A DNA stretch of 64,000 bases. Origin: Polytrichum commune (lineage: Eukaryota > Streptophyta > Polytrichopsida > Polytrichales > Polytrichaceae). The stretch spans positions 19,052,527 to 19,116,526 of the forward strand of contig OX485808.1 in the NCBI GenBank assembly GCA_950295325.1, read 5' to 3'. Below the pieces are notes generated by a model. That model saw only the letters and a list, made by a program, of their open reading frames with translations, did not search any database and was not told the DNA's origin. Below are positions 16,441 through 61,247 of the stretch, piece after piece. A program made the translations under genes and the position numbers. How positions within the stretch are numbered: position 1 is the first letter of the stretch; every line of letters starts with the position of its first letter.

Positions 16441-17369
16441 AAGCTAAGGTTGTGAGTGACTTTGTTTCGTGTATGCAGGCATCGCAGTCTTTGGATCTTA
16501 CCGGATCACAAAGGCATTCAATGGAGGATCACGATGTTGAGTTGTTGCTTCCTTTGGTTCCCGTTGTGGCTAGTGGGGACGTTCCACAGGCAGAGTTGAT
16601 CGATTCATGGAACTTTGATTGAAATGTTATGACATTTGAAATGTTTGGCAAAAGTTCATATATTCGGTTGTTGTGGTCTATTCTTATTATTTGCTTCACT
16701 TGTTTTCTCAGATTGATGTACCGGTTATGATGGAATGCGTGCAACCTCTTGATGAGTCGAATCCGGATGAGACTGAGCTCCATATTAGAAGATCACAGAA
16801 GGAGGACTCCAATAGCGTGATTAACCGGGTTCGAATGAAACCAATTGGGAAGTCCCGATTCCCGATTCCCGATTCCATTATGTCGTTTGCATTGTCTACC
16901 TCTTGTTAGACCCATCAACGAGGTTGATGTGGCTCGATTGGAAAATGAGTTCGTGATGGGTTATCGTGATGGTGATCGAGCTTTGTATGTTTCTCCATAC
17001 AACAACCTCGATGAGGTCCTTTATGTAACGGATGATATGAAGGCTTCATGGAGTCCATTATGGCAGGAGGCCAATAAAGAGTTTGATGCATTTCTCGTAA
17101 AAGACCCCGACCTCTCTCACCTAGTTGGCAAGATGTTCTTTGTGTGGGAAGGCAATCATCGATTGACAGCTTGGTTTAGGCACATTAACAAGCACCATTC
17201 CATGGACAAAGATTGGTACATATCCGTGGACTGCATTGTTGTGGACCCAAGAAACTGCACCGCAGTCTTCCTTAATGCGATGAATGACATCAACTGGTGA
17301 GTTTTTGGATTTTGAAAGTGTCTGACTTTGAGTTTAGGATGAAGTAATTGTGTTTGAAATCTGGTCTGA

Positions 17370-20300
17370 TTTATTAAATTGGGGGGGGCTCGGAACCGAG
17401 AGGAGGGGGGAGGTGTATGTTTTGAGGGATATTAGAGTTATCCTTTAACTCAACCAGAGTTTTAGTAGGGAGTTGGTTGTTTCGCATGCATAACTTTCCA
17501 TGTTCGGTAAGTTGTGGGTGCATGCTTGGAGTCAATGTGGAGGTTTGAACGAAGAACCTTCCATATTAGTTCATTGGGTACCAAACTCATTTTGGCGTCT
17601 CTTGGCATGCCAAAATGAATTTGATACCCAATGAACTAATATGGAAGGTTCTTCGTTCAAACCTCCACATTGACTCCAAGCATGCACCCACAACTTACCG
17701 AACATGGAAAGTTATGCATGCGAAACAACCAACTCCCTACTAAAACTCTGGTTGAGTTAAAGGATAACTCTATTGATTTTAGTTTGAAATATGCTTTGTT
17801 GAAATATGGTGTGATTTCTGAAATGTGGGGGGGGTCTCGGAACCGAGAGGGGGGGGGGGAGGTGTATGTTTTGAGGGAGATTGTTTTTAGTTTGAAATAT
17901 GCTTGGTTGAAATATAGTGCGATTTCTGAATGTGGGGGGGGGGTCTCGGAACTGAGAGGGGGGAGGGAGGTGTATGTTTTGAGGGATATTAATTTAGTTT
18001 GAAATATGATTTGTTGAAATATGGTGTAATTTCTGAAATGTGGGGGGGGGGTCTCGGAACCGAGAGGGGGGGGGAGGTGTATGTTGGGAGGGAGATTGTT
18101 TTTATTTTGAAATCAATTCAGTGTATATATGGTGTGATTTCTGAAATGTGGGGGGGGGGGGTTCTCAGAACCGAGAGGGGGGGGGGGAGGTGTATGTTTT
18201 GAGGGAGATTGTTTTTAGTTTCAAATATGCTTGGTTGAAATATAGTCTGATTTCTGAAATGTGGAGGGGGGATCTCGGAACCGAGAGGGGGGGGGGGGGG
18301 GGAAGTGTATGTTTTGAGGGAGATTCATTTTAGTTTGAAATATGGTGTGATTTCTGAAATGTGTGGGGGGGGGTTCTCAGAACCGAGAGGGGGGGGGGAG
18401 GTGTATGTTTTGAGGGAGATTGTTTTTTGTTTGAAATATGCTTGGTTGAAATATAATGTGATTTCTGAAATGTGGAGGGGGGGTCTCGGAACTGAGAGGG
18501 GCGGGGGAGGTGTATGTTTTGAGGGATATTGATTTTAGTTTGAAATATGCTTTGTTGAAATATGGTGTGATTTCTGAAATGTGGGGGGGGGGGTCTCGGA
18601 ACCGAGAGGGGGGGGGGAGGTGTATGCTTTGAGGGAGATTCATTTTAGTTTGAAATATGCTTTGTTGAAATATAGTGCGATTTCTGAATGTGTGGGGGGG
18701 GGTCTCGGAACTGAGAGGGGGGGGGGGGAGGTGTATGTTTTGAGGGAGATTGATTTTAGTTTGAAATATGCTTTGTTGAAATATGGTGTGATTTCTGAAA
18801 TGTGGGGGGGGGGGTCTCGGAACCGAGAGGGGGGGGGGTGTATGTTTTGAGGGAGATTGTTTTCAGTTTGAAATATGCTTTGTTGAAATATAGTGTGATT
18901 TCTGAAATGTGGGGGGGGGGGGGGTCTCGGAACCGAGAGGGGGGGGGTGTATGTTTTGAGGGAGATTGTTTTCAGTTTGAAATATGCTTTGTTGAAATAT
19001 GGTGTGATTTCTGAAATGTGGGGGGGGGGTCTCGGACATGAGAGGGGGGGGGGGAGGTGTATGTTGGGAGGGAGATTGTTTTTATTTGGAAATCAACTCA
19101 GTGTATATATGGTGTGATTTCTGAAATGTGGGGGGGGGGGGTCTCGGAACCGAGAGGGGGGGGGGAAGGTGTATGTTTTGAGGGAGATTGATTTTAGTTT
19201 GAAATATGCTTTGTTGAAATATGGTGTGATTTCTGAAATGTGGGGGGGGGGGGTCTCCGAACCGAGAGGGGGGGGGGAGGTGTGTGTTTTGAGGGATATT
19301 AATTTAGTTTGAAATATGATTTGTTGAAATATGGTGTAATTTCTGAAATGTGGGGGGGGGGGTCTCGGAACCGAGAGGGGGGGGGGGGGAGGTGTATGTT
19401 GGGAGGGAGATTGTTTTTATTTTGAAATCAACTCAGTGTATATATTGTGTGATTTCTGAAATGTGGGGGGGGGGGGTTCTCAGAACCGAGAGGGGGGGGG
19501 AGGTGTATGTTTTGAGGGAGATTGTTTTTAGTTTGAAATATGCTTGGTTGAAATATAGTGTGATTTCTGAAATGTAGAGGGGGGGTCTCGGAACTGAGAG
19601 GGGGGGGGAAGTGTATGTTTTGAGGGAGATTCATTTTAGTTTGAAATATGCTTTGTTGAAATATGGTGTGATTTCTGAAATGTGGGGTGGGGGGGTGTAT
19701 GTTTTGAGGGAGATTGTTTTTAGTTTGAAATATGCTTGGTTGAAATATAGTGTGATTTCTGAAATGTGGAGGGGGGGTCTCGGAACCGAGAGGGGGGGGG
19801 GGGAGGTGTATGTTTTGAGGGAGATTCATTTTATTTTGAAATATGCTTTGTTGAAATATGTTGTGATTTCTGAAATGTGGGGGGGGGTCTGTGAACCGAG
19901 AGGGGGGGGTGTATGTTTTGAGGGAGATTGCTTTTAGTTTGAAATATGCTTTGTTGAAATATAGTGTGATTTCTGAAATGTGGAGGGGGGGTCTCGGAAC
20001 CGAGAGGGGGGGGGAGGTGTATGTTTTGAGGGAGATTCATTTTAGTTTGAAATATGCTTTGTTGAAATATGGTGTGATTTCTGAAATGTGGGGGGGGGTC
20101 TCGGAACCAAGAGGGGGGGGGGAGGTGTATGTTTTGAGGGAGATTCATTTTAGTTTGAAATATGCTTGGTTGAAATATTGTGTGATTTCTGAAATGTGTG
20201 GGGGGGGTCTCTGAACCGAGAAGGGGGGGGGGGGGGGTGTATGTTTTGAGGGAGACTGTTTTTAGTTTGAAATATGCTTGGTTGAAATATAGTGTGATTT

Positions 20301-21805
20301 CTGAAATGTGGGGGGGGGGGTCTCGGAACCGAGCAGGGGGGGAGGTGTATGTTGGGAGGGAGATTGATTTTAGTTTGAAATATGCTTTGTTGAAATATGG
20401 TGTGATTTCTGAAATGTGGGGGAGGGGGGTCTGTGAACCGAGAGGGGGGGGGGGTGTATGTTGTGAGGGAGATTGTTTTTAGTTTGAAATATGCTTGGTT
20501 GAAATATTGTCTAATTTCATAAATGTGGGGGGGGGGGTCTCGGAACCGAGAGGGGGGGGGGAGGTGTATGTAGTGAGGAAGTTTCATTTTAGTTTGAAAT
20601 ATGCTTGGTTGAAATATGGTGTGATTTCTGAAATGTGGGGGGGGGGGTTCTCGGAAATGAGAGGGGGGGGGGGGAGGTGTATGTTGCGAGGGAGATTGTT
20701 TTTATTTTGAAATCAACTCAGTGTATATATGGCGTGATTTATGAAATGTGGGGGGGGGGGGTCTCGGAACCGAGAGGGGGGGGGGGGAGGTGTATGTTTT
20801 GAGGTAGATTGATTTTAGTTTGAAATATGCTTTGTTGAAATATGGTGTGATTTCTTAAATGTGGCGAGGGGGGTCTCGAAACCGAGAGGGGGGGGGGGGG
20901 GAGGTGTGTGTTTTGAGGGATATTAATTTAGTTTGAAATATGATTTGTTGAAATATGGTGTGATTTCTGAAATTTGGGGGGGGGGGGTCTCGGAACCGAG
21001 AAGGGGGGGGGGAGGTGTATGTTGGGGGGGAGATTGTTTTTATTTTGAAATCAACTCAGTGTATATATGGTGTGATTTCTGAAATGTGGGGGGGGGGGGG
21101 TCTCGGAACCGAGAGGGGGGGAGGGGAGGTGTATGTTTTGAGGGAGATTGATTTTAGTTTGAAATATGCTTTGTTGAAATATGGTGTGATTTTTGAAATG
21201 TGTGGGGGGGGGGGTCTCGGAACCGAGAGGGGGGTGGGTGTGTGTTTTGAGGGAGATTGTTTTTAGTTTGAAATATGCTTGGTTGAAATATAGTGTGATT
21301 TCTGAAATGTGGGGGGGGGTCTCGAAACCGAGAGGGGGGGGGGGGGAGGTGTATGTTTTGAGTTAGACTTATTTTAGTTTGAAATATGCTTGGTTGAAAT
21401 ATAGTGTGATTTCTGAAATGTGGGGGGGGGGGTCTCGGAACCGAGAGGGGGGGGGGAGGTGTATGTTTGGAGGGAGATTGTTTTTATTTTGAAATATGCT
21501 TGGTTGAAATATTGTGTGATTTCTGAAATGTGGGGGGGGGGGGTCTCGGAACCGAGAGGGGGGGGGGGAGGTGTATGTTGGGGGGGAGATTGTTTTTATT
21601 TTGAAATCAACTCAGTGTATATATGGTGTGATTTCTGAAATGTGGGGGGGGGGGTCTCGGAACCGAGAGGGGGGGAGGGGAGGTGTATGTTTTGAGGGAG
21701 ATTGATTTTAGTTTGAAATATGCTTGGTTGAAATATGGTGTGATTTATGAAATGTGGGGGGCGGGGGGTCTCGGAACCGAGAGGGGGGGAGGTGTATGTT
21801 GTTCT
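17370..21805 (+). repeat. Palindrome A array inside a gene A intron (about 40 units)
   Basis: The array fills the 17297-21825 intron. Units of about 100-110 bp repeat GTGTGATTTCTGAAATGTGG, a G-tract, the core TCTCGGAACCGAGA, a second G-tract, then AGGTGTATGTTTTGAGGGAG and AGTTTGAAATATGCTT. The core and its AA centre are nearly invariant, while G-tract length varies from about 6 to 17. A second unit type carries GAAATCAACTCAGTGTATATATGG. The 14-bp core has arms TCTCGG and CCGAGA. On this copy the left flank is GGG rather than CCC, so the palindrome is shorter than in the 45-49 kb array. Open frames here are repeat translations, not proteins. Confidence 0.93.
17435..17770. mobile_element. Foldback MITE, 336 bp, near-perfect hairpin
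   Basis: The two halves are reverse complements over about 160 bp each, from GAGTTATCCTTTAACTC at the left to its complement at the right, with a short loop around 17595-17612. It is inserted in one palindrome A unit. The uninterrupted unit reads GGGATATTGATTTT and the flanks here are GGGATATT and TATTG, so 3-5 bp were duplicated. The near-identity of the arms suggests recent origin. The transcript would form a long hairpin inside a gene A intron. Confidence 0.85.
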
Positions 21806-24612
21806 CTCACGTTTTGTTTAATTAGGTCCACGGAGCATTACCATGTTAAGGACAACCTCCCCGCGAAGTTGCTTTGCATTCGGACGTTTGGAAAGATGAA
21901 GCTGGAGGAGTTTAAGGACCTCCTTTCCATGGCGGACTACAAGATGTGCGAGACCAAGATGGTCAATGGTCCTACTTGGTATCCCTTGACATTAGACGTC
22001 TTTGTCAAATTCCTATACAAGGTAATTTGCTTTCTTTATTTTCCTTAATTCCCCTTCCCCCTTGTTTATGCCCGTTCCTTATTTTGTTCTTGGTTTGTTC
22101 CAAAGGAAGATATCCGCCGCGGCTGATACCGCAGGTCCGCAGCAAGGTTGTACCGTGAGAAAACTCCCGAGGCTCTCAGGTCCGCTCCTGAAATTTGGGA
22201 TGCTATGACAAAAGCCCAAGATAGGTTGATCAAAACCATTCGATCTCGAAACTTTGAGAAGTTTATTTCCGTCGCCCACAAGGACAACGGTGATGACTTC
22301 TTCCTCGAGGTGCCTCTCCTATCTTTGCTTATTCATTTTTTTTCTCGCTTTTCTATACACGTGGTTGTACTTAATGTTTCTTTCTTTTTCTTTCTGTGGC
22401 AGATTGACCGTCATTTCTCCACCTTCCTCGTCACGGACATGACAATACAGAAACTCCAAAAGGTGGCCACCACACATGTGGATGCCCATTTCAAGGCCAA
22501 GTGGCTTAGGTGGTGGAACTCCTCTGCCGAGGTCAAAGAACACAACAAATTTCCTTCGGCTCTCCCTCTCAGAGAGAAAATCCTCGAAAACTGGCTTAAC
22601 AAAGCTTCTTTTTGGGCTCAGGTGCATCTCTATCTTTTTCCTCCTTCATTTTCATTCCTTCCTCTACTTGTAGTTTCTAATCATTCTTTTTCTGTTCATA
22701 GTTGGAGAAGGGCGTCGGGGCAGAAATTGCTTCGTTTGAAAATGAGAGTTCCGTCGAATCGATTGGGGTTCTACTCAGGATATTTTGCAACCCGCCAATT
22801 ATGTTGAGCATTGGAGGCTCATTTTGTGGGACAAGGCTTTCCGGGTGTATTTTGACGACAAAGGCGATTTGAAATTTGTTAAAGACATTGATCTCATGGA
22901 GTTTGACGAGGGCCCCATCGCAATCAAACGCGTCGCATACCGGTAATTGTTTGAGTTTTCATTTGCTATAAATGTTCTTCATTTCCTATCCCCGCAAATT
23001 TCTTCTCTCATGTTCTTCATTTTCCAGGTACATTCACCGGGAGCTTGTTGTGAAGAATGCTTTGCCTTCTTCGTGTTTGCCCACTTCCCTTCTAGATTGG
23101 GTCGATGTCAACTCCAATCTTTGTGTGTATATGGCCATGCAACTTGCCAAATTCCCCCACGTGCACTTGGTAGCCGGTGGTTGGTACTTGGATTGCTCCC
23201 GTGGATTTGCGCCCGATGTAGAAGAATCCCTTTACAATAGCCTTGTTACGTCTGCCCCTGAGGTGGTTGAACTAGAGAAAGAGCCAGAAGAAGATAATCC
23301 TGCTCCTCCATCCATTGAGAAGGATGTTGCGCCTGTCAAAGCTAAGGCCAAGGGTAGGAAGGTTGTCCCCCTTGCCTCTTCTCAAGTTTCTACTCGTTCT
23401 TACACTAAGGCTTCCGTTCCACTCATTGTTGCTCCAGCCACCACCGTGGTTGGAAGTCCTTCCGCCACCCCTTCTGCCCCTTCCCCCGATCCTGTTGCTG
23501 CTCCTTCCCATAGCGGTGGTACCATCCCGTCTGTGCCTCGCAAGAGAAAGGCTGTTGCACCGGCTACTTCTGCGACTTCGTCGGAGAGGTCATCTAGTCT
23601 TTCATTGATTGAGAATGTGGACATGGGAGACCTCATTGAGGATCTCATGAAGACCAAGGTTCCCCCTCCCGCCTATCGCCGCATACAAGACTTCCTAACT
23701 AAGGTTTGTATGCCTTTCTCTTTCTTTATCCATTCATTGATTGTGTTTCATCATTCGTTGTTTTTTATTGATGTTATTGGGGTTTTCCCTTCTCAGGTTG
23801 GAGCGGGCCGAACTCATCCAAACACTAAGCCTAATCTTCATACAGGCATTGACCTAATCTTTGCCGATGTACCTGAGAACTTGCGTGTGCCGAACATCCC
23901 GGCCTCATCCTCGGATGTTCCTCACTGGAACAAGCGCTCTTCTTCTTATTTCGAGGTTTTGTTCGCTTTTGCCAATGTCAACCTCCATGACGACGGCGTC
24001 ATCGTCTTTGCTCACGCCGCAAATCCTAAGGTCTCTAGATCAATTCACGACTGGGCACACACGGAGGAATTTTATGTTGCCGAAGATTGTTTTGGCATGA
24101 GTGACCTCGATCTCCAATCGCCTACTAATCCATCTGAATTGGTAATTCCTTCTAGGCTTCATCGATTTTCATTCCTACCTTATTTCTTTCATTTGTGTTT
24201 TCCTAATTCTTGCGTTTAAAATTTCTGTAGACTCGCAAGTTCTTCATCCAGGTGTTTGTGCGTAATCGGTCCGTTTTAAATGTCCGCACCTCGGACTTCG
24301 AGGACATGGGTTACAATCTCAAACGACATGGTTGGCTCAACAGCTTCACCGATGTGAAGAACCAATCCGTGAGGGATGACGGGGTGCCTTGGAGAGGTGC
24401 TCAAGAAAAGTGCCCCGAATTTTTCTCGATCATTTTCTCCGCCCTCACGGACAAAGACGACATTATATTGAATTGGCAGTATGGCGTTGGTTCGTTCTTC
24501 TTATTTTAGTTTTACATTTCATTGTTTTTTATGTTTTATTTTCTTTGAATTTCATTCGTTGCCCATTCATTTTTTTATCCTCACCTATTCGCATTTTGTT
24601 GTTCTAGGAGGT

Positions 24613-25582
24613 TGTCGCGCACCTCTCCATGAGGAGTGCCCGAAACACCATGGGCACAAGGGGGACCCCGGAGTGACACCCGGGACTTGTGGCGCCGTTG
24701 GTGAGAGGGCCCAAGTGATCCTAGTGTGGGTGAGGGCCCCGGGCGTTGGGAACGCCTCCCACCCACGGAGACTAGGAGGCACAAGGGTAAGGCCATGAGC
24801 TATGCGTAGCTCATGGCGTGGTGATTCTAGAATGCTCAAGAACACCTCAATCGGAGGTGTGAGCTAGGAGTTATGGCCATTTGAGTGGGGCGCTGTCCCG
24901 GGACAGCGCCCTGGTACAGCAGTGCCTGGGAGTGATTCCCGGGACTGCCAAGGTTCAAACAGGCATAACTTCCTCACCACTTGCCCCAATGGGGCAAGTG
25001 AGGAGTGCATCGGCATCTACGTGAAGCGTAGATGAAGATGGAGTGGTCAAGTGTTAGCATCAGACATCATACAAGGAAGTTATGATGGTCTGAAGCTGTG
25101 GGGGCTTCTAGGCCCAGCGGCTAAGGGAAAATGTCCACTTGGCCCCAACTCTTGGTAGAGACAAGAGGTTGGTTGACGGTGGGGTAGGGGCCCCGGGTAG
25201 AGTCCTAGAGGCTTATATGGGTGAGGTGGTGTGGCCTCACCCACCCGAGGCCAAACGGCAAGGCGTCCATGGGCATTGGCCCATTGTGAGGCCATAGTTG
25301 CCTAGTATGGTTCGGGTTGTTGTAGTGTTGCTCCGGCAATGCGATGATCAACATAGGATTGGGCTTCCATGGATGGAAGTCCACATCTAAGGAATGGTTA
25401 CCGATTAAGGGGTGAGTCCCAAAAGCAAAGTAGGAGGGTTGGTTCCCTCCTATGAACTATAAGGTCCGGGGTAGGAGGAGCTAACCATTAGCATGGCGGA
25501 ATGCGAATGGTTAGCGCTCGTAACCTTTGCTAGAATTGAAAATTGGCAAGATTGTCAAGGGGGCTTAGCAAGGGTTGCGACA
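24613..25582 (-). mobile_element. Solo LTR, family 1 (970 bp), inside gene A
   Basis: It is inverted relative to 1210-2183: it starts TGTCGCGCACC and ends GGTTGCGACA. It interrupts a gene A exon in the glycine turn of the proposed methyltransferase motif I. The flanks are GAGGT and CTTGT. Removing the LTR plus exactly five bases restores the frame (GG then SIIACR, matching GG-SITACR in the second gene copy). A 5-bp duplication with a decayed right copy is therefore likely. Confidence 0.88.
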
Positions 25583-26329
25583 CTTGTTCCATCATTGCTT
25601 GCCGCTTCATTCAACGCCATATTGTGGCGCTTGAATAAGACATTGATGTCTTCAAGTCCATCCTCCTCCCCATTCGTGAGCCTGAGCAAAAACACACCTC
25701 TCAACACGCCGCCCCTCAACGATGCTCCGTTTTTGCTCCTCCTCCCCGAAAGATGGCGAAGCGCAATTTCGATTTGCTGTATGCGTAAGTTTGATTTGCT
25801 GTATGCGTAAGTTCGTTCTTAGCTTCTAACTCGTTTGAATTTCTATATTTTAGTTTTGAACATGTTCTCATTTTTTTCTCTCCCTATATGTGCAGAGTTC
25901 AAAATAAGAGCTCCATCCGCATCCTTAATTCGGACATGTTTGCAACGCCTTCGATGACGTTTGACCTTCCTTCCTATGCTGCTGAGTTTGCCCATCTCTT
26001 GGCAGAATCACCCTCTCCAGCTCCTATTCGCACCCGCCCTTTCAACAAACTAGTGTTGGATTTCCTAGATATAGAGGCCGAGCAAGGCGAGGATAGTGAT
26101 AGACTTGGTAGTCCAAGTATTTGACTAAGCCCCGTAAGTTAGAAACTTCCATTTTATATGTATTGGTTTTCATTAAGTCTTTTATGAGTTTATGTGTTGA
26201 ACTAGTTTGGTTGTACTAAAGAACCACAGGTATTGTGTTACTTTGATATAAGCCTAAAAAACATTTTGGAAATGTTATGAGTGTCTTTGATTTGTCTCCA
26301 ACATATGTGTTGTAATTTTTCTTAAAATC

Positions 26330-26372
26330 TGGTATGGGGGGGGGGTCTCGGAACCGAGAGGGGGGGTTTTTA
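26330..26372 (+). repeat. Single palindrome A site after gene A
   Basis: One isolated core, TCTCGGAACCGAGA, with flanking G-tracts and a GAAATCT-like lead lies just downstream of the gene A stop, beside an assembly gap. Confidence 0.8.
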
Positions 26373-48900: not shown

Positions 48901-49068
48901 AACATATTGAAATTCATAACTAACACTATATTCGTTAATTTGAGACTTTTTGGGCATTTTGAGACATTCACATAAATAAGAACAAGGATAAATGGAACAC
49001 ATATTGGAGAAAGTTGTAAGATGCGAACACTTTGAAGCAGGTGTTTAGACCAAGAACCCCATAAATAA

Positions 49069-49360: not shown

Positions 49361-49469
49361 TACAAAGTGTGGCATGTAAAATGCATATCATGCTAACACC
49401 ACACATGCATTGGATAGTGCGACCCAAAATGTTCTTGCCTATGGCCCAAAACCCTACGCCTACTATGGC

Positions 49470-51231
49470 CTATCTAGCCTCGGATACTACCTCTTTTTCT
49501 TTTGCTTCATTTTCTTTTGCTTTTTTTTCTTTTGCCTCTTTTTCTTTTGCTGCAGCTTCTTTTGCTCGCATTGCTTCAACATTCCTGAAAATCTCCGCCC
49601 CGCGACTATAGCCATTCTTGGGGTGAACGCCATCAATAACACATTTTGTATTCCGTCGGCCGCCCGAATTATACGACGAAGAATTCGAATACGATGAAGT
49701 GGACTGTCTTGCATTTCTGGTCATGGAGTAGAAACGCTCCAACTCGATGGACGCACTAGACCGCATAGGTTTACGGGTGGGAGCAACCTGCAACGCGTCA
49801 ACGCAAGAACACATGTGTTAGTTTAGGGAGGAAGACCCAAACGTGTCACACGTTCATTTTTTAAGTGCTAAATGATTGTAATGCGCGGATAACCATGTTT
49901 TTTTTTTGGGGGGGGGGGGTTCACCTTGTCACCGGGGGCGTTCCCGTCGGAGTTGGCGAGGAGGGGCAAGGCATCCCGCAAAGGAATAGGAAGGGTTCCA
50001 CTCTTCGTAGGCCGAGCGTCCATCCGCAGCCGCCGTTGAGGTGTACTACTGCCGCCGGGCCGAGAGGGGGATGTTCGGACGCATTTGCGATTTATGCCTT
50101 TGAGCGGTGCCGGGGACGCAGATCGCCGGAAGATTTGCTTGGGTGGGGGGCTATCGACGACGCCGGCGTCAAGAGGCTCCTTGGAGTAGTCGATGGTTGA
50201 CGCAGCGTCGTAAACGGTCTCGTAGAAGAAGCTCCCCAAGTCTGACTCGCTGACGATGTCAATCGAGGGCTCCAAACGCTGGAGCCAAAATTGGAACAAA
50301 ACAAAACCCAAGGAAAAGGGGGGAGATAGAGCGCGTGAAAATCAAGATACATATGAAGCGTAAATTACACAAAATGGGCGGGCGCATACACACACACACA
50401 TACAAACACACGTACTGTCTCAAATGAGCTTGTTAAATTTCGCGTGAGATAACAACTCTCTGTACAAATGGTCTCGTGGATCCAAGTATCTCTCGCCTAT
50501 GGGATTATTCCTAACAAAATTGTTTACGGGAGTCCGCTTCCCCAGAGCGCCTGGAGGTATTTACCAAGGTCTAACAAAAATCGGTCCCGGACCTTCTCGA
50601 CCGTCCACGTAGGGCACACTATGAAGTTGGCCGTCGGGTTCAACATGTTCTTTGCGGCGCTGTCGTCCACCATGAGCGTGTTCTCGCGGGTGGGGCGGAC
50701 GTCGTAGGGGACGCCTATCAAGGACGGTCGCTGGTCCCAAAAAATGGGCTTCAAGACCTTGAGGTATTGGGGGGAAGCGGGGTTGTTTGGTTTTTTGACG
50801 ACTTTGCCGTCCTGTGTGTACAATATTCTACAGGCTTCCTGTGCTAGGACCATGCAGGGGGGCTCGATGCCCTTGAAGATGAACTCCACGACGGCATTGG
50901 TGTTCTCGGCCGTCATGGAGCTCCACACGACCACCCACCATCGTTGTTGGGCCATCTGGAGGAAGGTCCGAAGCCACGGGCGGAGGTGAACTAGCTTGCT
51001 CTTTATGAACGTGGGCGGCCCGTCGTAATTAGCGTCCTCGGGCTTGCAAAAGGGCACTGTGGGGGCCCTAGGGCAATGAACGCACTGCACGAGGACACCG
51101 TTCAGGTCTAACACCAGGAATCATTTCTTCGGCAGCGGGGGCGGGGCGGGTAAAACCGGGGGGGCCGCCGTGCTGCCCTCTGCGCTCCTTGGAGAAGAGC
51201 GTCGGGGAGCCGCTACGCTATGCTCCGAGCC
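49470..51231 (-). pseudogene. FCP1/NIF-like HAD phosphatase
   Basis: Three exons fit: 51231 to about 50528, 50278-49925 and 49787-49470. The first has the HAD-type order of the FCP1/NIF family: FLVLDLNGVLVQC (motif I), LRPWLRTFLQM and WWVVVWSSMTAENTNAV (motif II region), then LMVDDSAAKNMLNP (motif III). Members dephosphorylate serine in proteins such as the RNA polymerase II tail. Motif I reads D-L-N where the family has D-x-D, so the general acid is missing and catalysis is doubtful. A TGA at 51121-51123 just before motif I would be Arg if CGA. The C-terminal exon ends in a long Lys/Glu/Ala helix (AKEKEAKEKKAKENEAKEKE). It lies downstream of gene B on the same strand and may be cargo of that element. 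Confidence 0.68.
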
Positions 51232-51701
51232 CTGCGGATACGATCGAGAGAAAACGGTGGGTGACTTATGTCATGCTATGTCCAAACGAAGCATTAAGGA
51301 AACGAGTGTTCTTGGTGCAAACACAAAACCAATTGATTCATTTTGGAGGGGGGTGCAACAAAGGATACAAGAGAGACAAGAGCATACAAAATACATTCAA
51401 ACACAATATACAAGTATATAGGAGTCAAAAATGGTGATTGTATTGTATACAATGCTCTATGTACATTTTGATTGGGGGGAGCCGCGTTGAACGATGCGTT
51501 CAAACTAGCCTACTTCTACATCTAGAAAAATTTGAAGAGACGGGCCGCCGTGATGAAGACTTCGTCGCAAGCCGGGGTAGGTGGACGAACGAATGGTCGG
51601 GGGGATGTGGCGAAGGGCGCGAGTGCCGGGGGGGCGACGTGTGTGTGAGTTTAGGGTAGCTAGGGGACACGACCAAGGCAAGAAGACAAAGACCCATGGA
51701 G

Positions 51702-52094
51702 TTTGGGTCGACCGACCCAAACTGAGTGGGGTCAGTGCATTACCTCGCCTTGGTCGTGCCTTGACGACGTTGATGCCGGCATCGCGTGCGCTGCCCCACC
51801 TCTGTCACTGCCGCCTCCGACGACGACGTCAGCCGCAACCTGCTCCTGCAAAGGCTGACTGTCAGGCCTTTGTCCCAACCCAACCTCCGCATGCGCATCA
51901 TGCATTGGTTCATCGACTGGGTTAGGAGTAGAGGTATCACCAGGCCCTTGCGGGCCTTCAACATCTAACATGGGCTCGTCCACCGGGGTCTGGTCGGGGA
52001 CGGGGTTTGGGTCGGCCGACCCAAACCCTGCTGCTTGGCGAGCGTCGCTCTGGGACGCAGCAACGTCGGCACTGTTTGGGTCGGACGACCCAAA
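51702..52094 (-). repeat. Palindrome B sites at the 3' end of gene B
   Basis: Three copies of TTTGGGTCG-NN-CGACCCAAA lie at 51702-51721 (centre AC), 52006-52025 (centre GC) and 52075-52094 (centre GA). The latter two fall inside the apparent coding C-terminus of gene B. There they encode FGSADPN and FGSSDPN in one frame. Confidence 0.9.
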
Positions 52095-53279
52095 CATGTG
52101 GGGGTCGTCCCGCTCGTGGTGTGGGGGCAAGAGGATGGGAGGCCAGAGCGGCGGGGGCGCCAACGAGCTGGCCGCTCCGGGGACGCGCCAAAGGTTGGGG
52201 TCGTCCACCTGCTGGACGGGCGTGCGGCTGCAGCAACTGTGCGAAGCTGAAGGAATGCTGCAGCGTGGGCCGCGGGGCGATATCCTGTGGCGGGAAGCCT
52301 GTGGGCAAGTGCGGGAATGAACTCGGGGGAGCCATCACCAATCCCTGCGCCAGCATGCCCTGGATCACTTGCGTGATGAGCTCCGCTTGGGACGGAGTTT
52401 GGGCCATCGCCCTTTGCCGCTCCTGCTCCAACAGGAGAGCCCTCAACTCCGCGACTTCGTTGCGGGCCGAGGGTTCCTCGGCGGCAGCCCTCTGCAGTCG
52501 CACACGCTGCTCCTCGTCTCGGAGCATTTTGCGTTCGCTTCCTCCACGGTGAGGACCTCTGGTTTCACCCTCACATTCCCGGCGAACGCTCTGGGGGAGG
52601 CAGGATCAGACCTCAGCCTCTTGGCGAGTTCCATGTCGTCCTCGTCCTCGGAGCTTATTGCGATCGTCTCCTCCACCGCATAGTCCCCGTACAGCTTCTT
52701 CCCCTTCATCCTTCTCCGCTCCCTGAAGGTGGCCGTCGCGTCCCTCGAGTACATGTCCTTCGCGTCGTCCACCGTCAACGCGGGCACCAGCCTGCTTTGC
52801 GGCGTGGCAGCCCGCATGGCCTTCTTCCGCTTAGGGGCCTCGGATTCTTGAGTGAATCCTGTTGCCCCTTCCTCCACCTCCCCCTCCACTTTCTTTGCTT
52901 CCTCCTCCTCCTCCTCCCCCTCCTCCCCAACCTCGCCACCTGCTCCCATCGACGGATTGCCCGGATGCAACCCGATGAGCGGCTCTGGCAATTGAACGGG
53001 GGCACGCATGGCGAATTCACCCGGGTTGATTCGCCTCGCCATATCCAAAGGATTCTCGCCCCCCTCGACGATCTCTTCAACGTAGGATCCGGGTATCCAA
53101 TCAAGGATGTCCATTTTCTTGGCCAATGCCTTCTGGGTCCTGTAAAATTGAACATCGGCATCCTCCACATAGGAGTAGATGTTCAACCCATACATCTGTA
53201 CAATCCAAATCAATAGTATTAATATAAACTAATGAAGAGTAAGGAAAAATGACATCCAAAATAAAATAAGAATAGTTAG

Positions 53280-53334
53280 TTTGGGTCGAGCGACCCAAAC
53301 TAGGGCATGCACAGTTTGGGTCGAGCGACCCAAA
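53280..53334. repeat. Two palindrome B sites in a gene B intron
   Basis: There are perfect copies at 53280-53299 and 53315-53334, both with centre AG, in the 53196-53369 intron. Confidence 0.92.
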
Positions 53335-54764
53335 CCGTCCGTATAGGGCTTTCAGGGTTCTTTGCTTACCATTGCTGCAAAAATCAGTTTGGATCCCCCG
53401 AAAACGTTGAAGATGCAGTCCCCTCTCTTGGTGAGGGTCCTCATCATCCGCAGGTAGAACTCCATGCGCAGCTCATCCGCGGGGTAGTTGGCGTATTTCG
53501 CCTCGTCATACAAGCTCCTGCTGGTACCCAACCCTTCTTGGACTTGGAAGAGCTTTTCCATCCTGGCTATAGGATGGTTGGGCACCTTAAGTAGATCAGC
53601 TTTGTACACGAAGTACAAGCACAACACGTTGACGATCTTCGTCTTCTTGTCTTTTAACGTGCTGTACGCCCCCTCCGCCGGTGCAGCAACGTAGTGAGAT
53701 TTCGAGACGGCATACTCCGGCTGCAATTTGCGCACGATCTCGTAAACCTGCTCTGCCCTCCTGTCCTCGACAATCCAGAGCCAGACGTCGACCTCCCTGA
53801 ATTTGGGGCTGGCGTAGTCCACGAACTTCGACAAGAAAGGATCGTAAAAAAGGGTGCTCATAGTCCCCTCGAATGAGGCTCCAGGGATATTCCTGAAGTC
53901 TATCATTCCGAAGGGGAAGCGGTCCCCGGCTTTAGTCCTGATCGCCTTCCTGGACTCAGAGCCCGGCCAACCTTGGATCCTAAGAGGCTCGACGGTGACC
54001 ATGTTGAATTGCGCATCGCCTTCGAAACTGACGATCTTCTTCTCCTTTATGAAGTTGGAGAAGGCCCGCGCTGAATGTTCAGGAAGCACCCGGTTCCTCC
54101 CCCCCTTCACGAGCTTGGATCTGAGGAAGTCGTCTCCCGCCTCCCTCATGAGTGCCGCCATGGACGCACTGGTGAACTTATATTCGGCTTTGAAGGCCCT
54201 CCAGTGCGCCTCATCGACCTCTCCGTCCACGATGAGCTTCTTCTCAGGCACCAGCTTGTGCAGCTCTTGGACGATGGTCGTCTTCTTCTTCCTGTTCTCC
54301 GTCCATTCCTTCATGGTGTAGCATGAAGGGACGAAGATCTTGGGTTTGGTGAAGACGATCTTGGGGTGGACCCAGCATCTCTTCGCCGTCGTCTCCACGT
54401 GTAGGATGTGGGACGCCGCTTTTCCCATCTCTGTCTCGGAAAGACCTTGAAGCGCTCTGAAGAACTCCCTCACCAGAGGCTTCATTTGCTTGAAGCGCGT
54501 AGTCTGGTTGAAGAGCATGCCGGTGTCGGGGTCCATAAGGTCCCCCGTCTCGTGTTTTTCAAAAACACTCCTCCATTTTCCCCACACGGAGTCGGACGCG
54601 GTGATCAAATATATTTCTCCTCGCAACTCGTTATATTTTTTTTGCTTGTGGCTAGCATTGTCTATCGAGGAGAATTTATTGATCATCTGATATTTGAAGT
54701 CCTGCACACGTAGCCAACAATTCATGTTAGACAACATCTCATGGAATAACAAATGTAACAGCAG

Positions 54765-54898
54765 TTTGGGTCGATCGACCCAAACTATAAACCTGGTAAA
54801 GACAACAAAGCCATGCAAGAGTTTGGGTCGAGCGACCCAAACTATGAATTTATTGAAGACACTAAAACAATGAAAGAGTTTGGGTCGGTCGATCCAAA
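54765..54898. repeat. Three palindrome B sites in a gene B intron
   Basis: Copies lie at 54765-54784 (centre AT), 54822-54841 (centre AG) and 54879-54898 (one mismatch, GATCC). They have about 57-bp spacing and fill most of the 54702-54907 intron. Confidence 0.92.
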
Positions 54899-56249
54899 CA
54901 TACTCACCACCCATTTGGGGTTCTTATCTTTAGCATTCTCCCTTTCCCTGGGAGGCCTGCCATAAAACTCCCACACCTCCCTCGAGGCCATGATGTTTCT
55001 GATCCACGATGCCTGATAGGCCCTCTTTTTGTTCCCCATGTTGAAGAACCTGGAGATGTCGCTGAGGACCGTCTCGTTGTCCGACCAAACCACCAAAGCC
55101 TTCCAAACTTTTAGTTTCTCCTTCTGGTTGTTCGGGTCGTTCCACTCGGTCATTAGCTGGATTTTTTTTGATGCCTCCACACTGTGCTGCCCGTCAATCA
55201 ACCAGAAGTCTCCGTTGGAGATTGTCGGCCACATATCAGGCGTCGGCATTCTCTTCAGCCCTTGTGGCATGACAACAATCGTCCTTGAACTGCCCGCCCA
55301 AGATTTGAGCGACCATCCAGTCGACGTAGGCGTCCTCCTTGGCTCGGACACATTTCTCGGGTGGCGCAAGGTGGCACTGCGCAATGTTGACCTCGAACTT
55401 GAAGTCCCTGCCCATGAAGAAGCAGTGCAGGCATTTTGTTTCGAAGTTGGTGTTTATTTTTTGTATTTCGCCTACATCCACCTCCTGGCCAGGCTTCGGC
55501 ATCCGGAGCTCCGGGGAAACAGGCTCGTCAGTCATCACCGATGACTCTCTTCCCCTTTTGGAAGGGGTCGTTTGACGGCTTGTTGATGGCGTTGGCGTCT
55601 CGCTGTCAGCCGGCGTTGTTGTAGTACTTGTCCGTCTCGACTCCACAGGGACCGCCTGCGGTTTCCTCACAGTTTGTGGTCTTGAGGACCCTGCGCCTTC
55701 TTCCGTCGTTGCCTTCCGCCTCACAGGCTGCTGTGTCTTGGGTTTGCTTTGCAGCGCCTTGTTTAGAACCGTGATGGCTTGTTTTAACTTCGTGAACCTG
55801 CTCACAACCTTCGTGTTGGTTACACTGCCATCTATGAATATGGCCTCCGGTTGTATGGTTTCAGGGTCGACGCAGGTCTCCTTGGCGTACAGGGGGTCGA
55901 AGGGCTCGGAGAACTGGTGCATGAACATGTGGACGTTCTGCACGGCGGAGTTCTCCAGTATGACGTCTACATAGTCCCCGAGAGACTGGACAGACGCAAC
56001 CTCCCATCCCGTCAGCGTTGCCCAGGTGTGTTGCTCGTGGGTCCCCACCTTCACCACGAATAGCAGCTTGAACATGGATGCCTTCACCACCTGAACGGAC
56101 CATGCCAGAACGACGCCATCTTTTGGGACGTAAGAATCGTCCTGTGGAGTTTCATACTCTTGCCAAAGGTGGTCTGGCGCGAGCATGAACCACCTTTCAC
56201 CTGGTCTCTTTTTAGGGGCCATCTGCAATCCAAGAAATCGAAACTGTGA

Positions 56250-57030
56250 GTTTCGGTCGATCGACCCAAAGTATTGCAATGTGCATTTAACATTTGGAGG
56301 ATTGATCCAAACATTACTCAATTTTCAAAGTCGTTTTAAAAGATCTTTTAAATTTTAAATTGTGGTTTAGGTGGTCACCCTGCAATGTTTGGATCGAGCG
56401 ACCCAAACATGATGAGGCTGCAAATTTAGATAGTTTAACCCATTCATTTCAGACTGCAATGTTTGGGTCGAACGATCCAAACATTTACTTAATTTTCAAA
56501 GTTCTTTTATATTTTACAATGTGCTTTAGTTCTTCTCCGTGTAATGTTTGGGTCGACCGACCGAAACATATTAGGCTGTAAATTTAGGTAGCTCAACCCA
56601 ATCATTTCAGACTGCAATGTTTGGGTCGAACGACCCAAACATTTACTTAATTTTCAAAGTTCTTTAATATTTTACAATTTGGTTTGTTCTTCTCCCTGTA
56701 ATGTTTGGGTTGAGCGACCCAAACATGATGAGGCTGCAAATTTAGGTAGCTCAACCCATTCATTTCAGACTGCAATGTTTGGGTCGAACGATCCAAACAT
56801 TTACTTAATTTTCAAAGTTCTTTTATATTTTACAATGTGGTTTAGTTCTTCTCCCTGTAATGTTTGGGTCGAGCGACCCAAACATAATGAGGCTCCAATG
56901 TTTGGGTCGCTCGACCCAAACAAGAGGCTGCAATGTTTGGGTCGAACGACCCAAACATTTAGTTCATTTTAGGTTGCAATTCAAATATTTATTATATTTT
57001 AATATGAGTTTGGGTCGTCTCCCCAAACTA
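56250..57030. repeat. Palindrome B cluster in the gene B 5' intron or leader
   Basis: About ten copies of TTTGGGTCG-NN-CGACCCAAA lie between 56252 and 57026. Centres are AT, AG, AA, AC and CT, and several have one mismatch. Spacing is about 75-85 bp on the left, with a unit containing TTTACTTAATTTTCAAAG, and 36 bp on the right. The cluster lies between the first coding exon of gene B and a donor-like site at 57145, so it is probably in a 5' intron. Confidence 0.88.
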
Positions 57031-57144
57031 CTGTGTTTCCAGATGCATGTTTAATGCTTGGGCAACATATACAATGCTTATGCATTGTATATGTAACAGG
57101 AACCTAAAGGGAATGATGCAAATTGTATGCACTGATGCAAATTG

Positions 57145-57780
57145 CTTACCTTGTCTTTCAAACTCTTGAAAGCTGCTCTCACAATCTGCTTCTTACAACC
57201 AGACTCAGAAACTCTGTTGTGGCACTAAAGAACAACTCTCACAAAGACCTCAGAAACACAATGAATCTCTCGAGCACCCTAAAACTTTCTCACAAACCCC
57301 CTGATACTTGCAAACTCAGGCCTAATTTGAAAGACCTCTACCTTTCTATCACACTCGACCGTGCTCACTTCTACTCAACCTAAAATCACTCCATGCATGA
57401 AATTTACAAAACAAGTAAGGAGTTCAACACAATAAACCGCTCCGAACTCACTCAAAGCTAACACTCTGGACCAAGAAGAGAGAATAACAAGAGGAAGACA
57501 ATAACAAGAGGAATAGAATGAGAGAAGAGGAGGAGAAGCATCAGAGAGGAGGACAGGAATGAAGGAGAAAGAAGAATGAAAGGAAGCGGCGCGACGAAGA
57601 CAAAAGCAAGCGGTGCGAAAGGAAGCGCTTGGCGCGGCGCTATGGAAAGCGGCGGCGGCGTTTCCAAGAGTGGCGCTTGGCGCGGAGGAAGAGAGGAAGA
57701 AAAAGAGAGAAAGAAAAAAGAGGAGGGGAGAGAAGGAGAGAGCGGAAGGGGTCACCCTAAACCCTCGAATCCGGGCCATT
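57145..57780 (-). promoter_or_regulatory. Candidate promoter and 5' exon of gene B
   Basis: A good donor (AAG then GTAAGC, minus strand) at 57145 faces the acceptor just before the gene B ATG at 56222. Two matches to the E2F consensus TTSSCGSS (TTGGCGCG) lie at 57629-57636 and 57677-57684, in a purine-rich plus strand. This fits an untranslated first exon with S-phase control, but no TATA box is clear. The open frame here (MARIRGFRVTPSALSFSP) is low complexity and may be only leader. Confidence 0.35.
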
Positions 57781-58555: not shown

Positions 58556-59372
58556 AACACAAACCATAACTGGATGGCACATAGGTCAAATGACATGGGC
58601 CTTGGTGCTTGTAGTTTCCAATACAAATGTATAATGTCATCACAACATCCTAATTCACAAACGTGAAAGATGGATGTGTGGTTTTTCACGAATGAACGCA
58701 CTAAAGGAAATAAATGATATTGTGCTCACAAGTAGGTGATACAATATTAACCTATAACCTTGTCACCTGGTAAGAAGAGCATAAGAACTAGATTATAATA
58801 GATAGGATGTTGTTCATGTTAACATGTTATTTGGAATAGTGAAATATTATATATTAATTTAAGGTAGATTTCATGTTGTGAATGATATGAGGACATACCT
58901 TTTGAACTTTGCATGTTTTGCTCACACACATTGCTAGAGTTCAAGGGACTTCACGATAGGTTCAAACATCCTTGAAAGATTGAACGTGCCAAATGTCATT
59001 TGTGGTTTATGGTTCCATTAATGACTTCCACATAGGTACTAGGTTATTGTCACACTTGGAGCCTTGAGGATGAAGCAATATTGGGTGCACACATTACAAC
59101 ACAACAGATGTTCTTTTAACTAGCGGAAATTGAAAGTTGGCCAAATTATTCAAGTTTGTCATGGCATTAATTATTTGTTTTCAAAATATAAGTCCTCATG
59201 TGAGAGTGTAAGTAATTGCATTAACTATTCTATTTAGTGACTTTTAGTGACTTTTAGTATATGAAGTTTTGTAATACATGCACATCTTTTGTCAATATAT
59301 TGTTTGAAATATACCATAATGTTTGACTACAAGTAGAGTAAAACCCCTTAATAGATATAATCTTACATATTG

Positions 59373-59508
59373 TCATAGGGTTATTGGTATTCAGTGTATG
59401 CGTTCATATGTAGTGTATCAAAATCTTTATATCCTTTTTAGTTATATGATAGTTAGTGTTTGATACACTTAAAACGAACGCATACACTTCCTATTACTAA
59501 CCCTATGA
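59373..59508. mobile_element. Small MITE, 136 bp
   Basis: The termini TCATAGGGTTA and TAACCCTATGA are inverted. Further inverted blocks are AGTGTATGCGTTC and AGTGTATCAAA, so most of it folds into an imperfect hairpin. The flanks do not show a clear target duplication. Confidence 0.7.
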
Positions 59509-59815
59509 GAGTAAGTAACATTAAATGTAAACTCAAACACTAAATATCCACTGTGGTGATATATGGAAGTTACATATAGGAATTTAGTATTAGTAAGGAT
59601 GTGAGAAAAAAATACAACAATGATAAAAGGAGAAAGGAGATGGCAATAGGGAAGGTGGTGGTGTATTCATGTATAAAACTAATTATGAAAGAGTTGAAGA
59701 ATAGTGTTGACCAAGTTAGGGTGGTAACAACTTTAAATATATGTTGAATTATTCATTTGATGGTTGGGGCAACGAAGAGCCAAGCTAAATATACATTGTC
59801 TATTATTGACAAGAA

Positions 59816-59915: not shown

Positions 59916-60128
59916 AGCCCAACCCCCCCAAATGCTGGTTCTTTCTTTCATGTCCCAATCCTGAGATTGCTGCAAGCTCTCTAAGTTGGAGCTGTAATAC
60001 ACGGTTTGTGTACGCTTCCATTCATGAGCAGCTAATTACAACAAATATCTACGAGTTCAGTTGTTCCAAATAGGTTATATATAGATTAATAGAGAATCAC
60101 CCGAATAAATAGGCGGATTTTGCGGAAT

Positions 60129-61247
60129 TGTTTGGGTCGGTCGACCCAAACCCAGCCTTACAGTGTGGGTGCTCTCTGTTGTGAGCCTGAACCCATCCTG
60201 CCTCAAGGTTTGGGTCGATCGACCCAAACCCAGCCCTACAGTGTGGGTGCTCACTGTTGTGAGCCTGAACCCATCCTGCCTCAAGGTTTGGGTCGATCGA
60301 CCCAAACCCAGCCCTACAATGTGGGTGCTCACTGTTGTGAGCCTGAACCCATCCTGCCTCAAGGTTTGGGTCGATCGACCCAAACCCAGCCCTACAGTGT
60401 GGGTGCTCACTGTTGTGAGCCTGAACCCATCCTGCCTCAAGGTTTGGGTCGATCGACCCAAACCCAGCCCTACAGTGTGGGTGCTCACTGTTGTGAGCCT
60501 GAACCCATCCTGCCAAAAGGTTTGGGTCGGTCGACCCAAACCCAGCCCCAAAGTGTGGATGCTGTGTGTAGTGAGCCTGAACTCATCCTGCCTCGAGGTT
60601 TGGGTCGCTCGACCCAAACCCAGCCCTCTAAGTGTGGGTGCTCTCTGGAGTGACCCTAAACCCATCCTGCCAAAAGGTTTGGGTCGCTCGACCCAAACCC
60701 AGCCCTCTAAGTGTGGGTGCTGTCTTTAGTGAGCCTGAACCCATCCTGCCAGAAGGTTTGGATCGATCGACCCAAACTCAACCCTACAGTGTGGGTGCTC
60801 ATTGTTGTGAACCTGAACCCATCCTGCCAAAAGGTTTGGGTCGCTCGACCCAAACCCAACCCTCTAAGTGTGGGTGCTCTTTGGAGTGACTCTAAACCCA
60901 TCCTGCCAAAAGGTTTGGGTCGCTCGACCCAAACCCAGCCCCCTAAGTATGGGTGCTCCTTGTCGTGACCTTAAACCCATCCTGCCAAAAGGTTTGGGTC
61001 GCTCGACCCAAACTCAGCCCCCTAAGTATGGGTGCTCTCTGGAGTGACCCTAAACCCATCCTGCCAAAAGGTTTGGGTCGCTCGACCCAAACCCAACCCC
61101 CTAAGTATGGGTGCTCCTTGTCGTGACCTTAAACCCATCCTCCCAAAAGGTTTGGGTCGCTCGACCCAAACCCAGCGCCTAAGTGTGGGTGCTCTCTGTA
61201 TTGAGCCTGAACCCTCCTCCCAAAAGGTTTGGGTCGCTCGACCCAAA
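60129..61247 (+). repeat. Palindrome B array in the 5' leader (15 units)
   Basis: Fifteen units of about 78 bp each hold one TTTGGGTCG-NN-CGACCCAAA followed by CCCAGCCCTACAGTGTGGGT, GCTCACTGTTGTGAGCCTGA and ACCCATCCTGCC. Left units have centre AT, right units mainly CT, a few GT, so the array grew by local duplication. It lies between the TATA box and the ATG of the transposase gene, hence in a leader or first intron. Long open frames across it are repeat translations. Confidence 0.95.

Follow-up and report, generated by a model that had tools for sequence, protein, structure and literature searches.

The proteins of two multi-copy gene families, A and B, are predicted to combine a ParB/Srx-fold domain with an adenine-methyltransferase-like domain further downstream, and the non-coding DNA of each family contains arrays of a private palindrome. 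The palindrome of family B is also amplified upstream of a neighbouring DUF7869 gene. The analysis, carried out on a stretch of 64,000 nucleotides (the window), suggests that A and B elements recognise their own DNA.

Two private palindromes in the window

Palindrome A (CTCTCGG-NN-CCGAGAG) occurs at 77 sites when up to 3 mismatches are allowed, against 0-1 per first-order Markov shuffle (n=5), and palindrome B (GTTTGGGTCG-NN-CGACCCAAAC) at 36 sites with up to 4 mismatches, against 0 in each of five such shuffles. The A sites are confined to 13.6-26.4 kb and 40.8-48.8 kb and the B sites to 49.1-61.3 kb, with none elsewhere in the window. The two palindrome families claimed in the preliminary description of this DNA are thus where it had placed them, and both lie far above shuffle expectation. 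A mismatch-tolerant site search gave the following groups (palindromic, unstranded):

13664-14237: 6 A palindromes, 5' of gene A copy 1
17387-21783: 37 A palindromes in repeat units of ~110 bp, in the E2/E3 intron of gene A copy 1
26345-26360: a single A palindrome, 3' of gene A copy 1
41647-42871: 4 A palindromes, between exons E8 and E9 of gene A copy 2
45505-48739: 29 A palindromes in units mostly of 95-108 bp, in what we read as the intron immediately 5' of exon E5 in copy 2 of gene A
49182-49842: 3 degenerate B-like palindromes, with a 98-bp tandem repeat containing two of the three
51701-56956: 18 B palindromes across gene B
60130-61248: 15 B palindromes in units of 77-79 bp, upstream of the DUF7869 gene

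Genes A and B and the DUF7869 gene

Gene A is present in two spliced copies, 16712-26124 (+) and 44962-39961 (-); in an alignment of 731 columns their proteins are 62% identical. Comparison of copy 2 with copy 1 over 475 codons gives an omega of 0.18 (95% 0.13-0.24), a sign of selection on A.

16712-17296 (+): gene A copy 1, exon E2, encoding the ParB/Srx-fold domain, with one frameshift close to the start
21826-26124 (+): gene A copy 1, exons E3-E11, the middle part and then a permuted adenine-methyltransferase-like domain (E8-E10)
21826-22021, 22106-22309, 22403-22621 and 22702-22942 (+): gene A copy 1, exons E3 to E6
23028-23703, 23797-24141, 24231-24486, 25562-25785 and 25896-26124 (+): gene A copy 1, exons E7 to E11
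39961-44962 (-): gene A copy 2, exons E5-E11, one frameshift in E7
54908-56222 (-): gene B, exon E1, encoding the N-terminal region with the ParB/Srx-like domain; one frameshift
53370-54701 (-): gene B, exon E2, encoding the central region plus most of the adenine-methyltransferase-like domain
51744-53195 (-): gene B, exon E3, encoding the last part of the methyltransferase-like domain and then a low-complexity tail, with frameshifts
50524-51231 (-): gene B, exon E4, NIF/FCP1-type phosphatase-like domain (PF03031, 3.4e-15), one internal stop
61432-64000 (+): DUF7869 gene, an ORF at 61432-63000 and then a frame from 63032 that runs off the window

All window copies of A and B are damaged by frameshifts, stops, an inserted repeat or an absent 5' part. 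Copy 1 of gene A has a stop in E4, a frameshift in E6 and a stop in E10, and a dispersed repeat is inserted at about 24607-25582; upstream of E5 in copy 2, exons E2-E4 were not recognised. Gene B spans 56222-50524 (-), and its exon E4 probably belongs to the same transcript, judging from the splice sites. Ten of the 18 palindromes across gene B lie in the putative 5'UTR intron (56223-57149); introns 1, 2 and 3 contain 3, 2 and 1, and the remaining 2 are in frame within the coding sequence of the E3 tail. Sixteen of 18 are therefore intronic, though introns make up 27% of the length (p 8.8e-8), and in introns 1, 2 and 3 the nearest palindromes come 8, 34 and 21 nt past the 5' splice sites.

The array at 60.1-61.2 kb stands directly 5' of the + strand DUF7869 gene. 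The frame 63032-64000 matches DUF7869 (PF25273, 3.9e-42), the ORF 61432-63000 has no Pfam match, and the two would form one gene, a candidate transposase of the gene B element. No DUF7869 match was found among the ORFs scanned near gene A. The phosphatase-like domain of gene B, its two palindromes in coding sequence and the placing of this array before the DUF7869 gene are absent from the preliminary description.

A predicted ParB fold followed by a methyltransferase-like domain

Structure comparison predicts a ParB fold for the gene A region at high confidence. For gene B we obtained a low-confidence model (overall pLDDT 41.1, which is poor; alignment A2, 14 of 15 homologues, P0004 left out, plus one window exon) together with weak profile matches, which fall in the same order as in A, ParB at residues 260-392 and then adenine methyltransferase at about 721-928. 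The alpha+beta fold of the ParB/sulfiredoxin superfamily was recovered, and KorB is a structural neighbour of the ParB-like domains of both A and B. The ParB-like assignment, previously made by eye and open to refutation had the region lacked a ParB fold, is thereby supported, for B more weakly than for A.

It was the fold comparison that settled the ParB question, sequence-only family searches having failed for both genes. Neither A nor B matched a Pfam ParB family above cut-off; gene A gave weak Pfam matches to DUF6551 (0.19, in 2 of 55 members) and ddrB-ParB (0.19, in 1 of 55), and phrog_1033 was matched at best at 0.0082 by B (8 of 9 members) and at best at 0.33 by A (2 of 55). Pfam gave no ParB or methylase match for single exons, B homologues or the B ParB core, and the ParB regions of A and B showed no significant similarity to each other when their profiles were compared. 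A PDB sequence search returned nothing for alignments A3 and A5 (the latter with 54 of the 120 listed A homologues, hand-picked for spread, plus the window exon) and unrelated weak matches for A4, A7 and A8 (A7 with 9 of the 11 homologues having the aligned region, P0005 and P0015 left out). ParB proteins read parS through a helix-turn-helix domain; neither a ParA nor an HTH-type parS reader turned up in general domain scans of ORFs in the window.

The C-terminus of gene A resembles methyltransferases, with matches to DpnA (E 0.0039), to a phage methyltransferase family (E 0.0015, in 1 of 2 members) and, below cut-off, to Pfam N6_N4_Mtase (E 0.079, in 1 of 2 members). A Rossmann methylase domain with motif I, as expected of an N6-adenine DNA methyltransferase, was recognised, and profile and structure matches bear out the by-eye assignment in A, with weaker support in B. 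The catalytic motif IV of these enzymes has the consensus (D/N/S)PP(Y/F/W), for example DPPY. At its place, located by inspection, we find ADVPEN in both A copies and DFRNIP in all seven B sequences covering the region, neither of which fits the consensus, so that motif IV appears to be lost in both methyltransferase-like domains. This loss would make DNA reading or occlusion likelier than methylation for the methylation-related domain noted earlier.

Palindrome signatures in most gene B homologues

Among 15 metagenomic homologues of gene B, 12 carry the palindrome B signature in intron read-through, as read from translations rather than DNA, and 11 of these are compatible with the exact palindrome. 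P0007 has the signature with one arm substitution; of the homologues lacking it as searched, P0012 has none, P0013 a half-site and P0015 one substitution. The B signature is found in 0 of 120 listed A homologues. A full-length gene A query gave no metagenomic homologue, probably because metagenomic ORFs correspond to exons, which in gene A are short, and a single-exon query gave 180, including the 120 listed, which mostly end before the introns and provide no test of A pairing. The co-occurrence of gene and palindrome proposed previously therefore holds for B in 12 of 15 homologues and for A in the two window copies. In viral contigs neither palindrome occurs in exact form, no relative of A exon E2 was found and, of 62 stretches fitting a pattern for the B N-terminal half, none was confirmed; prokaryote species genomes contain no exact B palindrome. 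These viral and prokaryote scans may omit records close to the genome from which the window comes.

In the 78-bp B array (13 units), 1 of 260 arm positions is changed against 82 of 728 in the unit remainder (p 1.3e-10), a 41-bp false unit having been dropped; with it the values are 19/280 against 104/784 (p 0.003). An ungapped version gave 112 of 600 flank positions changed, a number inflated by indels. The B leader array (3 units) shows no clear difference (0.967 against 0.946). Between separate B contexts the common 12-mers lie mostly within the palindrome; none is common to all five, partly because the palindrome centre varies. For A, within-array conservation is not decisive: when arrays are cut on their flanks, the palindrome core is barely better conserved than the remainder in copy 1 (0.922 against 0.915), and in copy 2 the values are 0.988 and 0.881. 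Tests on picked sites gave p 0.011 for copy 1 and p 4e-5 for copy 2, both biased since the sites were selected by palindrome match.

Proposed self-recognition and other explanations

We consider it on balance probable that the ParB-methyltransferase-like protein binds its own palindrome, with the methyltransferase-like domain as reader, and that this serves self-recognition of the element. The protein, probably as a dimer, would bind the two half-sites; the methyltransferase-like domain would read DNA without acting as an enzyme, while nucleotide-dependent retention or spreading of the protein along DNA may fall to the ParB domain. Both in cis and across sister copies, the element would thereby regulate its genes or maintain them in an open state, leaving the rest of the genome untouched. 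The logic would be that of VANDAL/VANC elements, achieved through a different, prokaryotic-type protein. The low omega of gene A, the uniform replacement of motif IV, the intronic bias of gene B sites, the conserved arms of the 78-bp B array and a VANDAL21-like layout also favour this reading; the damage to the window copies, the poor gene B model, the B homologues lacking the signature and the even conservation within the A copy 1 array weigh against it. Self-recognition as originally put forward is thus partly supported, through the ParB fold and the B pairing, while its methylation part needs changing.

A ParB-type protein might instead repress or activate its own genes at palindromic operators, like KorB on plasmid RK2, with no anti-silencing role. 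The structural proximity of KorB to both domains, the many sites in leader introns and the short distances to the 5' splice sites in gene B introns 1-3 agree with such autoregulation, but operators would hardly need sites by the dozen (37 in one intron, 29 in another) or their amplification in several unit contexts, and we regard it as unlikely. Slightly less likely again is that a transposase (the DUF7869 protein for B) binds or recombines DNA at the palindromes, the ParB-methyltransferase gene being cargo or an accessory. DNA transposases often use subterminal repeats and 15 B sites stand directly 5' of the DUF7869 gene, but gene B palindromes are scattered in introns and even coding sequence, self-comparison revealed no long inverted repeats flanking the genes, and ORFs scanned near gene A lack a DUF7869 match. 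The adenine-methyltransferase-like domain of both proteins, and the association of 6mA with permissive chromatin in several eukaryotes described in the available text of PMC12695648, would fit proteins that methylate adenine at or near their own palindromes as a self mark; the apparent loss of motif IV in 2/2 A and 7/7 B sequences makes this quite improbable.

In the RNA of introns and leaders the palindromes could also form stem-loops with a part in splicing, RNAi or stability. Most sites are non-coding and probably transcribed, and some one-sided pair changes remain capable of G-U pairing on the + strand (4/9 in B, 10/28 in the A core). Two-sided, compensatory changes are found in none of 9 changed pairs (33 B sites) and none of 28 (core, 77 A sites), and the arm sequence is nearly fixed while the centre varies, so we give hairpins very little credence. 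We see just as small a chance that the palindromes are neutral satellites, expanded by slippage and in these genes by accident: tandem arrays do expand readily and the units of A copy 1 are conserved about uniformly, but one palindrome recurs in five B contexts with little else in common, its signature persists in 12 of 15 diverged homologues, and B arms are more conserved than the unit remainder.

Relation to known systems

The self-recognition we favour has its closest parallel in the VANDAL MULEs of Arabidopsis, as described in the available portions of PMC5735166 and PMC10398659: an element-encoded protein acts with short motifs that are private to, and different between, families, and tandem repeats of the motif occupy introns and the region upstream of a second (transposase) gene. 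In VANDAL21 the motif repeats lie in the VANC21 and VANB21 introns and upstream of VANA21 (PMC5735166), and here likewise a private motif is amplified in tandem repeats of the element's non-coding parts. The VANC21 motif has 9 bases and is arrayed in a single orientation, and the term 'palindrom' does not occur in the available text of PMC5735166; the A and B proteins differ in combining ParB/Srx and methyltransferase-like domains and in having palindromic motifs. Motif binding and methylation loss have been demonstrated for VANC, whereas A and B are known from sequence. The A and B proteins scanned have no Pfam match to VANC or MULE transposase domains, and the ORFs scanned beside either gene include none recognisable as a MULE transposase. 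At 7.1-10.8 kb, away from both genes, a MULE-like ORF set was noticed by eye.

Bacterial and phage ParB-methylase fusions, such as Bce_0392 (PMC5512222, available text), likewise join a ParB-superfamily domain to an adenine methylase, and the ParB domain of Bce_0392 is reported there, by citation, as a non-specific nicking enzyme. A and B differ from them in being eukaryotic (with introns), highly diverged, apparently catalytically dead and equipped with their own palindrome array. With ParB-parS and KorB they share a ParB CTPase-type fold and clustered palindromic sites; parS sites, however, are of 16 bp and few per replicon, and in A and B the palindromes lie in introns of the protein's own gene, with no ParA or HTH identified. 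The Dnmt-type methylase retrotransposons of charophytes and dinoflagellates (PMC5890265) are also mobile elements with a DNA-methylation gene, perhaps from the same broad lineage, but they are retroelements with C5-cytosine methylases, and the available text of PMC5890265 contains neither 'palindrom' nor 'ParB'. One such methylase-bearing retroelement may lie at 29-34 kb, apart from A and B. This candidate and the style of the introns would fit a plant-like genome, perhaps of a streptophyte alga.

A search of titles and abstract openings found no ParB-based system of eukaryotic mobile elements, and VANC as the only sequence-specific anti-silencing kind for a mobile element. As a tentative and rather doubtful extension, eukaryotic mobile elements may have taken up prokaryotic-type ParB-adenine-methylase fusions and disarmed the methylase, giving a parS-like system in which nucleotide-gated ParB clamps would load on intron and leader palindromes and shield chromatin, in at least two lineages with separate palindromes and independently of VANC. 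The pairing of protein and DNA is directly testable, since the two protein families have been delimited along with the half-sites and centre of the palindromes. The use of a ParB fold by eukaryotes outside sulfiredoxin is, to our knowledge, rare, and self-recognition by A and B, if true, would be one such case. It would also constitute a second anti-silencing kind, based on an unrelated prokaryotic-type protein and clean palindromes, and would suggest that self-recognition codes arise repeatedly in mobile elements.

Gene structure, selection and relatives

The features of gene A and gene B, the two families with ParB/Srx-like and methyltransferase-like domains, are as follows, all rebuilt exon by exon.

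16712-26124, + strand: gene A copy 1, exons E2-E11
44962-39961, - strand: gene A copy 2, exons E5-E11, each preceded by AG
56222-54908, 54701-53370 and 53195-51744, - strand: gene B, three exons
51231-50524, - strand: gene B, probable last exon, which holds a NIF/FCP1-type phosphatase-like domain (3.4e-15)

In gene A copy 1, AG stands before 9 of the 10 exons, the border of E10 being masked by an inserted dispersed repeat of ~0.98 kb (24607-25582), and GT directly follows exons E2-E8, whereas the ends set for E9 and E10 fall one base beyond a GT. An uncertain candidate for exon E1 was found upstream, at 16479-16625. The phosphatase-like domain (50524-51231, - strand) is apparently fused to gene B.

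The two gene A copies have 62% of their residues in common (450/731 aligned columns), with dS of 1.06, dN of 0.19 and omega of 0.18 (95% bootstrap 0.13-0.24) over 475 codons in six exon parts. This comparison omits E10, the initial portion of E6 and the later portion of E7, as well as E2-E4, which were not recognised in copy 2. The gene A protein was therefore formerly under selection, despite the present damage in both copies of the window. Gene B carries frameshifts and one stop as well. BLASTP found no match between the A and B proteins (best E 2.2).

Using the first two exons, read through, as query, we found 15 relatives of gene B in the protein collection (jgi, ena and lgn sources), at 66-81% identity. 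Exon E2 of gene A gave 180 relatives at E up to 10, from 185 candidates; the 120 listed are 53-88% identical, and some of their contigs are hundreds of kilobases long. A and B are thus each a family with diverged copies, whose relatives are annotated solely as 'hypothetical protein'.

Downstream (3') of gene A copy 1, an ORF at 27177-27686 (+) weakly resembles an F-box (E 0.067, short of the cut-off) and is possibly a second gene of the gene A element. The non-palindromic word GAAATC[A/T]GGTGT occurs in 11 exact copies upstream of copy 1 (14198-16430) and in 10 (40801-43215) and 9 (44963-48800) in two introns of copy 2; these three clusters account for all 30 in the window, with none in the palindrome intron of copy 1. 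This word may be a further motif private to gene A.

Placement and conservation of the palindromes

Palindrome A has 77 sites in the window, in clusters of 6, 37, 1, 4 and 29, and palindrome B has 36, three of them degenerate (49.2-49.8 kb). Of the remaining 33 B sites, 15 precede a DUF7869 gene and 18 belong to gene B: 10 sit in its inferred 5'UTR intron, 3 in intron 1, 2 in intron 2, 1 in intron 3 and 2 within coding sequence. The placement in introns and leaders proposed in the preliminary description holds, since 16 of the 18 palindromes inside gene B are intronic (p 8.8e-8) and no palindrome A site falls within the 5317 bases of A exons. The closest palindrome starts 8, 34 and 21 nt inside introns 1-3 of gene B and 193 nt inside its 5'UTR intron. 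A 98-bp tandem repeat (49067-49326) contains two occurrences of GTTTAGGTAGGGCAATCCAAAC, a decayed palindrome resembling B that may represent a third type of motif.

Between pairs of the separate contexts that hold palindrome B, the 12-mers in common lie inside the palindrome in 22/25, 21/23, 11/13, 11/16, 16/19, 11/11, 7/11, 11/15, 4/8 and 0/2 cases, and none is common to all five contexts. Six 12-mers occur at least 19 times in both the copy 1 and the copy 2 introns of gene A, all of them palindrome core. In the 78-bp B array (13 units), the arms are changed at 1/260 positions, versus 82/728 elsewhere in the unit (p 1.3e-10), and the first centre base varies (C, A or G); in the array of A copy 1 the palindrome has no excess conservation. 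No compensated change was seen among the 9 changed pairs of B or the 28 in the core of A, and a G-U pair was retained on the + strand in 14 of these 37 changed pairs.

Pairing of palindrome and gene family

Translated in three frames, palindrome B reads VWVxRPK, LGRxTQT or FGSxDPN. Judged from translations rather than DNA, this signature is present in 12 of the 15 metagenomic B homologues, where the ORF extends into an intron, and in none of the 120 listed A homologues, which bears out for the gene B clade the earlier claim of co-occurrence with a private palindrome. An exact palindrome is compatible with 11 of the 12 signature-bearing homologues, P0007 having one arm substitution; of the other three, P0015 differs by one substitution, P0013 has a half-site and P0012 shows no signature. 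The signature appears in 9/11 intron-1 tails and 4/6 intron-2 tails (that of P0002 being a few residues), and in P0004 one of the two palindromes in coding sequence persists, reading FGSTDPN. The A signature is absent from the 15 B homologues, and from the 120 listed A homologues, whose ORFs barely extend into introns. At the level of sequence, these results demonstrate a private pairing of the palindrome with the gene B family.

The 15-site B array (60130-61248) ends ~200 bp before the DUF7869 gene (+; 3.9e-42), which is divergent from gene B. A TATAAA at 59909, upstream of the array, suggests that the array may lie within the leader or first intron of that gene. An imperfect inverted repeat (59352-59529; 178 bp, 71% identical to its own complement) lies between the two genes. 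The name 'DUF7869' was not found in the literature searched; its protein is putatively a transposase. In VANDAL21 (PMC5735166), VANC21 and VANB21 have motif repeats in their introns and VANA21 has them upstream, a layout that gene B and the DUF7869 gene would resemble if the DUF7869 protein is a transposase.

The methylase-like domain

The methyltransferase-like domain of the preliminary description stands as a resemblance: the C-terminal part of gene A (two sequences) matches DpnA across the motif I region (E 0.0039), and one of the two members matches a phage methyltransferase family (E 0.0015). The match to CcrM in the motif I region was not significant (E 0.37), and Pfam N6_N4_Mtase was sub-threshold (E 0.079, one of two members). 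The catalytic motif appears to be lost. Its consensus is DPPY; at the corresponding place, whose position in A and B is inferred, both A copies have ADVPEN and all seven covering B sequences DFRNIP, which suggests a DNA-reading domain without activity.

Other elements in the window

An LTR-type retroelement (29154-33725, -) encodes an integrase (PF00665) and an RT RNase H (PF17917), together with a stretch resembling a C-5 cytosine methylase (PF00145; E 0.00094, which falls short of the cut-off); it is similar to Gypsy elements bearing Dnmt3 that are described from a charophyte (PMC5890265). A dispersed repeat of up to ~980 bp (1-935, 1206-2991, 5155-5904, 24607-25586 and 37543-38523), whose longer copies are 79-96% identical and one of which disrupts gene A copy 1, carries the palindrome GCTGTCCCGGGACAGC at 277, 1889, 5488, 24892 and 38222. 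An ORF at 2120-2749 (-), adjoining a dispersed repeat, contains a PHD finger (PF00628, 5.4e-12). The ORFs at 7116-10804 (-) are by eye MULE-type transposase-like with a SWIM-like zinc finger; Pfam gave nothing above cut-off there.

Relation to known systems

The literature searched, with incomplete coverage, yielded no description of a ParB-based system of eukaryotic mobile elements. VANDAL/VANC is the closest analogue in logic (PMC5735166, PMC10398659) and bacterial ParB-methylases such as Bce_0392 are the closest in protein architecture (PMC5512222); the A and B elements are assigned to neither. We are nearly certain of the anatomy of genes and palindromes, and the domain assignments are established, for B less firmly. 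Binding, self-recognition and an effect on silencing are what we infer: the proteins probably recognise their own palindrome, and an anti-silencing outcome is a tentative suggestion.
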